A DNA stretch of 64,000 nt from Vulcanimicrobium alpinum (GTDB lineage Bacteria; Vulcanimicrobiota; Vulcanimicrobiia; Vulcanimicrobiales; Vulcanimicrobiaceae): positions 2,670,484 through 2,734,483 of the forward strand of contig NZ_AP025523.1 of assembly GCF_027923555.1 (NCBI RefSeq), read 5' to 3'. The position numbers and the translations under genes were made by a program. Positions 11,162 to 11,285 of the stretch are shown here, piece by piece (within the stretch, counting starts at the first letter, position 1; every line of letters begins with the position of its first letter). Below the pieces are notes generated by a model. It was not told the origin of the DNA and did not search any database. It saw only the letters and a program-made list of their open reading frames with translations.

Positions 11162-11189
11162 ACGGCCCTCGCCGGGAGGCGAGGGCCGT
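11162..11189 (-). terminator. Met/Cys attenuator hairpin upstream of metY
   Basis: A perfect 12-bp stem: minus-strand ACGGCCCTCGCC, loop TCCC, GGCGAGGGCCGT. Its core is the same GCCCTCGCC arm used in the Thr attenuator. The expected U-tract is not adjacent (CGTGTTCTCC follows; T6 lies about 17 bases further), so it may be a weak terminator, or the second arm may pair with GGCCCC just before T6. The leader segment GCGGGGGACG (11241-11232) can pair with the 5' arm with one mismatch, giving a plausible antiterminator. Confidence 0.7.
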
Positions 11190-11225
11190 TGCAGTGTCAT
11201 CAGAACGCCGAAGGGCGACGACGAA

Positions 11226-11285
11226 CTACACCGTCCCCCGCGGGGAACAGCAGCACATCATCATCGCCAGGGACCGGCGGTTCAT
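11226..11285 (-). CDS. Methionine/cysteine leader peptide controlling metY
   Basis: A 19-residue peptide, [19 protein letters not shown], from ATG 11285 to TAG 11226, with three Met codons followed directly by three Cys codons. AAGG lies about nine bases upstream as a ribosome-binding site. It begins 33 bp after the beta-propeller stop and about 120 bp before metY. Cys-rich and Met-rich leaders are known ways to sense charged tRNA levels. Here both amino acids are the products or relatives of the controlled pathway, so starvation for either should stall the ribosome before the antiterminator strand. Confidence 0.82.

Follow-up and report, generated by a model that had tools for sequence, protein, structure and literature searches.

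A probable transcription attenuator with methionine and cysteine codons, predicted to be leaderless, upstream of metY-metX in Vulcanimicrobium alpinum

The metY-metX locus and its leader

The window, that is, the whole 64,000-nucleotide stretch of Vulcanimicrobium alpinum DNA analyzed here (G+C content, 68.5%), carries on its minus strand a short open reading frame (ORF), metY, a metX-like gene, and hom, in that order of transcription. A preliminary description of this DNA had named the gene after the short ORF metY, and sulfhydrylase models of NCBIfam (PRK08248, PRK07812, and TIGR01326) match it above cut-off, in agreement with that name. The hom gene matches PRK06349 above cut-off, and the best NCBIfam matches for the metX-like gene are MetX models, below cut-off. 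The features at the locus are as follows.

7410..8567, minus strand: hom, homoserine dehydrogenase
8587..8724, minus strand: sister attenuator of hom, predicted to be leaderless, with a 25-amino-acid leader (8724-8647) and a terminator (8619-8587)
8706..9821, minus strand: metX-like homoserine O-acyltransferase gene, overlapping the end of metY
9818..11107, minus strand: metY, O-acetylhomoserine/O-acetylserine sulfhydrylase
11226..11285, minus strand: leader peptide ORF of 19 amino acids, predicted to be leaderless
11247..11264, minus strand: putative regulatory codons, three for Met (11264-11256) and three for Cys (11255-11247)
11293..11322, minus strand: promoter TTGACG-18 nt-TAAGGT, with its predicted transcription start at or adjoining the leader ATG

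The leader ORF (11285-11226) was recognized from the sequence and from homologous leaders in 13 other genomes, and it does contain the three ATG codons and three following Cys codons that had been described. At background frequencies, at least six Met or Cys codons among 18 would arise with a P of ~6e-7, and the 3.5-Mb genome contains ATGATGTGYTGYTG only once. Among the metY leaders together, Met and Cys make up 71 of 275 codons in frame, compared with 17 of 262 and 11 of 262 in the other frames and a background of about 2%. Composition and frame, together with the stall folding described below, are the grounds for regarding these codons as regulatory.

A promoter that adjoins the leader

The proposed -35 box, TTGACG, lies at 11322-11317, and the -10 hexamer, TAAGGT, lies at 11298-11293, 7 nt before the leader ATG in the window copy. 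In the nine metY leaders aligned first, the arrangement TTGAC(N)-17/18-TAxxxT is followed by ATG 7 to 8 nt on in 9/9 cases. A larger compiled set, which includes hom, ilvA, and sulfite-reductase leaders, keeps a distance of 6 to 9 nt from the -10 box to the ATG in nearly all members, and the -35 boxes of the hom leaders are weaker (TTGCGC and similar). The window promoter fails a strict consensus scan; scanning the stretch that holds the window copy for consensus promoters and terminators returned neither a promoter nor a terminator passing the thresholds.

A distance of 6 to 9 nt leaves no room for a Shine-Dalgarno site. The ribosome-binding site that had been assigned to the leader must therefore be withdrawn, because the AAGG before its ATG is part of the -10 box TAAGGT. 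With only 7 nt between the promoter and the ATG, the leader transcript is probably leaderless.

Competing RNA structures

Three sets of helices compete in the leader RNA: a 1:2 hairpin, in which the Met-codon strand pairs with CGTCGTCGCC after the stop codon; a 2:3 antiterminator; and a 3:4 terminator.

11214..11268, minus strand: 1:2 hairpin of the Met-codon region (from 11268) with TTCGTCGTCGCC (11225-11214), enclosing a CCCC/GGGG stem; from minimum-free-energy folding, 92 to 93% paired in nine leaders
11226..11241, minus strand: antiterminator 5' strand GCGGGGGACGGTGTAG, which includes the leader stop codon
11178..11195, minus strand: antiterminator 3' strand, overlapping the terminator 5' arm, from pair counts and duplex energy
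11162..11189, minus strand: predicted terminator hairpin of 12 bp with a UCCC loop, then a weak U-tract, CGTGTTCT

The perfect 12-bp hairpin before metY (ACGGCCCTCGCC-TCCC-GGCGAGGGCCGT at 11189-11162) is present as previously described, and four of its pairs show two-sided changes in homologues. As a terminator, it keeps its perfect stem but is weaker than had been implied, with only CGTGTTCT after the stem. Homologues have better T-tracts than the window copy, and most are T-rich (e.g., GCTTTTTTATT, TGTTTTTTCCT, and CCTTTTTCATT). The pairing of 11241-11232 with the 5' arm of this hairpin, also proposed earlier, extends further than was noted: the duplex with 11195-11178 reaches 11226 and comprises 14 bp at -21.6 kcal/mol.

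The folded region is more stable than 200/200 shuffles (z, -4.3). Across nine leaders, 93% of the 1:2 and 3:4 pairs are kept, with six two-sided changes, a result that 0/500 shuffles match; slid controls for the same pairs are 40 to 58% paired. For the antiterminator, the outer 2:3 stem is 93% kept in the nine leaders and the inner part 71%, and support from shuffling is weaker. The mutually exclusive antiterminator and terminator are kept in relatives.

A second hairpin, GGGCCG...CGGCCC followed by T6 (window 11168-11139, minus strand), could use the terminator 3' arm. It would reverse the attenuator logic if it were terminating, and it is not seen in homologues.

Modeling of ribosome stalling

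Equilibrium folding, which ignores kinetics, was used to calculate how likely upstream RNA is to hold the 5' arm of the terminator, with the front edge of the ribosome placed 15 nt past the first nucleotide of the P-site codon. In the window copy, this antiterminator probability is 0.02 without a ribosome and 0.71 to 0.75 with the A-site at any Met codon or the first Cys codon. It declines further on, to 0.58 at the second Cys codon, 0.32 at the third, 0.10 at Ser, and 0.00 at Pro. By calculated folding, then, the window antiterminator would be freed only while a ribosome has not moved beyond the Met/Cys run.

For 37 leaders, the antiterminator probability peaks at a mean of 0.80 and averages 0.23 at the stop codon; in none of the 37 does it drop before the last regulatory codon. 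Shuffled GC-rich RNA averages 0.52 compared with 0.76 observed; for the antiterminator of the window copy alone, 10/60 shuffles do as well, and the result is convincing only as a set. In many congeners, the antiterminator prevails at equilibrium even without a ribosome, and the untranslated default is therefore uncertain.

We consider it probable that metY-metX is controlled by a ribosome-mediated transcription attenuator with Met and Cys regulatory codons. RNA polymerase would start at or adjoining the leader AUG, and a 70S ribosome would begin directly on this 5' AUG. When Met- or Cys-tRNA is scarce, the ribosome would stall on the Met/Cys run and cover or disrupt the 1:2 hairpin, so that 11241-11226 would be free to pair with the terminator 5' arm and transcription would read through into metY-metX. 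When both tRNAs are charged, the ribosome would enter 11241-11226, which holds the stop codon, and no antiterminator would form; the 11189-11162 hairpin would then fold, and transcription would end. Such a readout would be of the OR type, in which either shortage opens the gate, and this would fit an enzyme that makes homocysteine and perhaps cysteine.

Conservation in the family

The leader is found upstream of metY in nine other genomes of the genus, before metX in one more (G003), and before metY in three other genera of the family. All 14/14 family metY/metX leaders have at least two internal Met codons and at least one Cys codon. Conservation of Met and Cys codons in the metY upstream regions of relatives, on which the preliminary description had staked its reading, thus applies to the two amino acids but not to the exact MMMCCC run, which is specific to this species. 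The conserved feature is a Met-rich series of codons ending in Met-Cys, with Met preceding Cys and the ORF running on for another 6 to 12 codons; leaders differ in how many Cys codons they have and in which frame. In most congeners, a 1-nt deletion shifts the frame after Met-Cys, and the RNA there is still conserved, as would be expected of an attenuator, in which codons count up to the stall and RNA counts beyond it. The genus sequences are related, and so the leader counts are not independent. Matching versions occur in close and distant relatives, and the design therefore looks real.

No leader immediately precedes the metY orthologues at loci L011, L013, and L018, since the gene is internal to a hom-metY-metX operon there. 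In two such operons (G016 and G020), the leader sits before hom; three others (G013, G017, and G019) yielded no Met/Cys leader ahead of hom, and relaxing the search did not change this. Weak covariance-model matches outside the family (~24 bits) were left uncounted, as most had the appearance of terminator-type hairpins.

Codon-to-pathway matching in sister attenuators

A covariance model built from metY leaders found sister elements in the same genome. One of them precedes hom in the window (44.8 bits; E, 1.1e-10 in its own genome), overlaps the metX 3' end, and has Thr, Ile, and Met codons in its leader. Others precede ilvA (MLRCALVIIAGSIIAAPP..., Ile), an assimilatory sulfite reductase gene (MLLCCCLLMACPAS...), and a gene for an ssuA-type sulfonate-binding protein (MPNAASFLAMCMCCLPRPGVG), the latter two with Cys/Met codons. 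Relatives add a cystathionine gamma-synthase (metB-type) leader with Met only and prephenate-dehydratase loci with Tyr/Phe-rich short ORFs. Short ORFs with Tyr/Phe codons (e.g., MLTDRSLAFAYYYYFCRPPGR and MNRMFSYAYSFYFGG) occur at attenuator-like matches at L045, L044, L056, and L219; the one at L045 precedes a fused prephenate dehydratase/DAHP synthase gene.

The short ORF is enriched in codons for the pathway product: metY leaders are 26% Met plus Cys, and hom leaders are 26% Thr. Thr codons number 104/394 in hom leaders versus 9/275 in metY leaders (P, 2e-17). Moreover, four genomes have an operon that unites hom with metY, metX, or both, with leaders MFATTTAMMSMCCMQ..., MFAPGRTSMMWLMSRMCCHP..., MFTRPTTMICPMCGMQEAC..., and MFVDRAPMMCSMCRCMQM.... 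The codons of these joined-operon hom leaders differ from those of hom-alone leaders, with more Met plus Cys (27/105 versus 33/341; P, 1e-4) and less Thr (9/105 versus 99/341; P, 7e-6).

Separately, Cys-rich leaders with terminators precede a 1-Cys-type peroxiredoxin gene in a genus member (L223, MFETGRSAMCCCLCRP...) and in a member of the Bacteroidota (L241, ...MMCCCCCCFAAGG...), which suggests that Cys supply may also gate a peroxiredoxin.

Met/Cys leaders in other phyla

Scanning ATGATGATGTGYTGYTGY over 84,980 species genomes gave at least 119 loci. Among the matches listed, short ORFs with an intrinsic terminator after them precede metY (L097, L148, L158, and L184), cysteine synthase (cysK; L076, L103, and L176), a PAPS-reductase-like gene (cysH; L157), a nitrite/sulfite reductase gene (L141), genes for family-3 solute-binding proteins (L077 and L120), and a gene for a MetN-like ATPase (L185). 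The listed Met/Cys leaders with terminators belong to Bacteroidota, Ignavibacteria, and Clostridia.

In 395 genomes of a Bacteroidota sample, the shorter pattern ATGATGTGYTGYTGY matched 51 times and its reversed control 4 times; in 391 genomes from the class to which G156 belongs, the counts were 28 and 2. Each sample includes one genome chosen for matching, the reversed pattern is imperfect as a control, and many of the matches are not leaders. In other phyla, many MMCCC pattern matches are probably chance, and a match was counted only when it lay in a short ORF with a terminator after it.

Met/Cys leaders with terminators also precede DUF4395-type proteins in Bacteroidota (L263 and L266), which hints at a sulfur-related role for DUF4395. 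In Clostridia, MMMCCC leader ORFs precede a 410-amino-acid protein (L070 and L095), a candidate sulfur-related gene product; the L095 protein has no Pfam match, and neither protein has an NCBIfam match. At L192, a MNACCEKMACCMSPLLGSA leader precedes a 328-amino-acid protein without a Pfam or NCBIfam match.

Relation to known attenuators

Attenuators of the thrL/trpL type in Proteobacteria use the same alternative 1:2, 2:3, and 3:4 hairpins, and thrL itself reads two amino acids, Thr and Ile; unlike the element described here, they have Shine-Dalgarno-led leaders and read different amino acids. Canestrari et al. (2020) reportedly treat leaderless poly-cysteine sORFs of mycobacteria as attenuators. 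Leaderless poly-Cys sORFs have been put forward as attenuator candidates in mycobacteria (Shell 2015, PMC4633059; Seliverstov 2005, PMC1262725). These resemble the metY leader in having a run of Cys codons in an sORF before sulfur genes, a leaderless transcript (predicted in our case), and a proposed Cys-responsive attenuation. Here, however, Met codons are added, a predicted intrinsic terminator faces a competing antiterminator, the phylum is different, and the terminator-bearing family covers several amino acids. The mycobacterial type also has its Cys run near the ORF end and no Met run, unlike the leaders described here.

The metL leader of Streptomyces lividans metNIQ, MSTTSDRTPATEATTTPGARCMCRRMCAF, has been reported as a leaderless Met/Thr leader (PMC8079986). 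It has Met codons and is leaderless, as is predicted for the metY leader, and its sequence also has Cys codons (GARCMCRRMCAF); it differs in its description as Met/Thr, in being without a typical terminator, and in having its codons scattered rather than in a run. The uORFC-8-2 motif, a Cys leader upstream of cysS in Rhodobacterales (PMC8632094), has tandem Cys codons inside a stem and then an intrinsic terminator, but it has Cys only, serves a tRNA synthetase gene, and belongs to Alphaproteobacteria.

A leader that reads both sulfur amino acids had been called unusual at the outset. The literature otherwise gave Cys leaders only, which agrees, although S. lividans metL, with both Met and Cys codons, tempers the claim. 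The searchable literature contained no report of a classical terminator/antiterminator attenuator with adjacent Met and Cys codons in its leader, nor any account of leader peptides for amino acids in this phylum. We would class the element as a variant of ribosome-mediated attenuation that is predicted to be leaderless, appears to read Met and Cys, and has a classical terminator/antiterminator switch.

Alternative explanations

The reading that competes best with dual sensing, one we regard as possible though doubtful, is that the attenuator is real but senses only one amino acid, the other codons being tolerated since the 1:2 helix accommodates ATG/GAU repeats. CGTCGTCGCC does pair with the strand that holds the Met codons, and these could thus be kept for RNA structure, yet hom leaders of the same architecture have Thr codons in that strand. 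Similarly, most congeners have one Cys codon (MAMC), exactly at the drop-off, and the metB-type leader has Met only, but the leaders of hom-metY-metX operons, as well as leaders of unrelated RNA in other phyla, carry both Met and Cys.

Instead of intrinsic termination, translation or Rho could mediate the regulation; such a mode has been proposed for the Cys leaders of mycobacteria, which lack terminators (PMC1262725). The weak U-tract of the window copy and the GC-rich organism would suit this idea. We consider it improbable in view of the perfect stem with compensatory changes, the T-rich tails of most homologues, and the Shine-Dalgarno site of metY itself (AGAAGAGG), which ends about 9 nt before the metY ATG, outside the hairpin.

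A long conserved 1:2 hairpin adjoining a terminator upstream of metY might instead suggest a metabolite-binding (SAM-type) riboswitch with an incidental ORF. This is very unlikely: the paralogues before hom, ilvA, and sulfite reductase share a common layout with codons that differ by pathway, and an Rfam search of the whole window gave no match that reached the gathering threshold, while in the leader even permissive thresholds gave no riboswitch family. Finally, an accidental ORF in a GC-rich intergenic region, next to the terminator of the upstream beta-propeller gene, has a negligible claim, for although the end of that gene, at about 11319, overlaps the -35 box and the window copy is not extreme in the shuffle test, the element is conserved across the genus and also in further genera whose upstream genes differ, and its codons correlate with pathway.

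Implications

We therefore favor an attenuator that reads both sulfur amino acids, a likely reading of the sequence because of its conservation, the codon-to-pathway matching, the alternative structures, and the independent cases in other phyla. A broader proposal is evenly poised in our judgment: Met+Cys leaders may be a widespread, repeatedly evolved OR-gate class in Vulcanimicrobiota, Bacteroidota, Ignavibacteria, and Clostridia, those of Vulcanimicrobiota belonging to a clade-wide leaderless set whose codons are retuned upon operon rearrangement.

If dual sensing is true, a single codon run would gauge both sulfur amino acids without a SAM riboswitch. Moreover, the hom leaders offer a natural experiment, being Thr-rich when hom stands alone and Met/Cys-rich when it is joined to metY/metX, and codon-to-pathway matching is thus directly testable in a cultivable strain.
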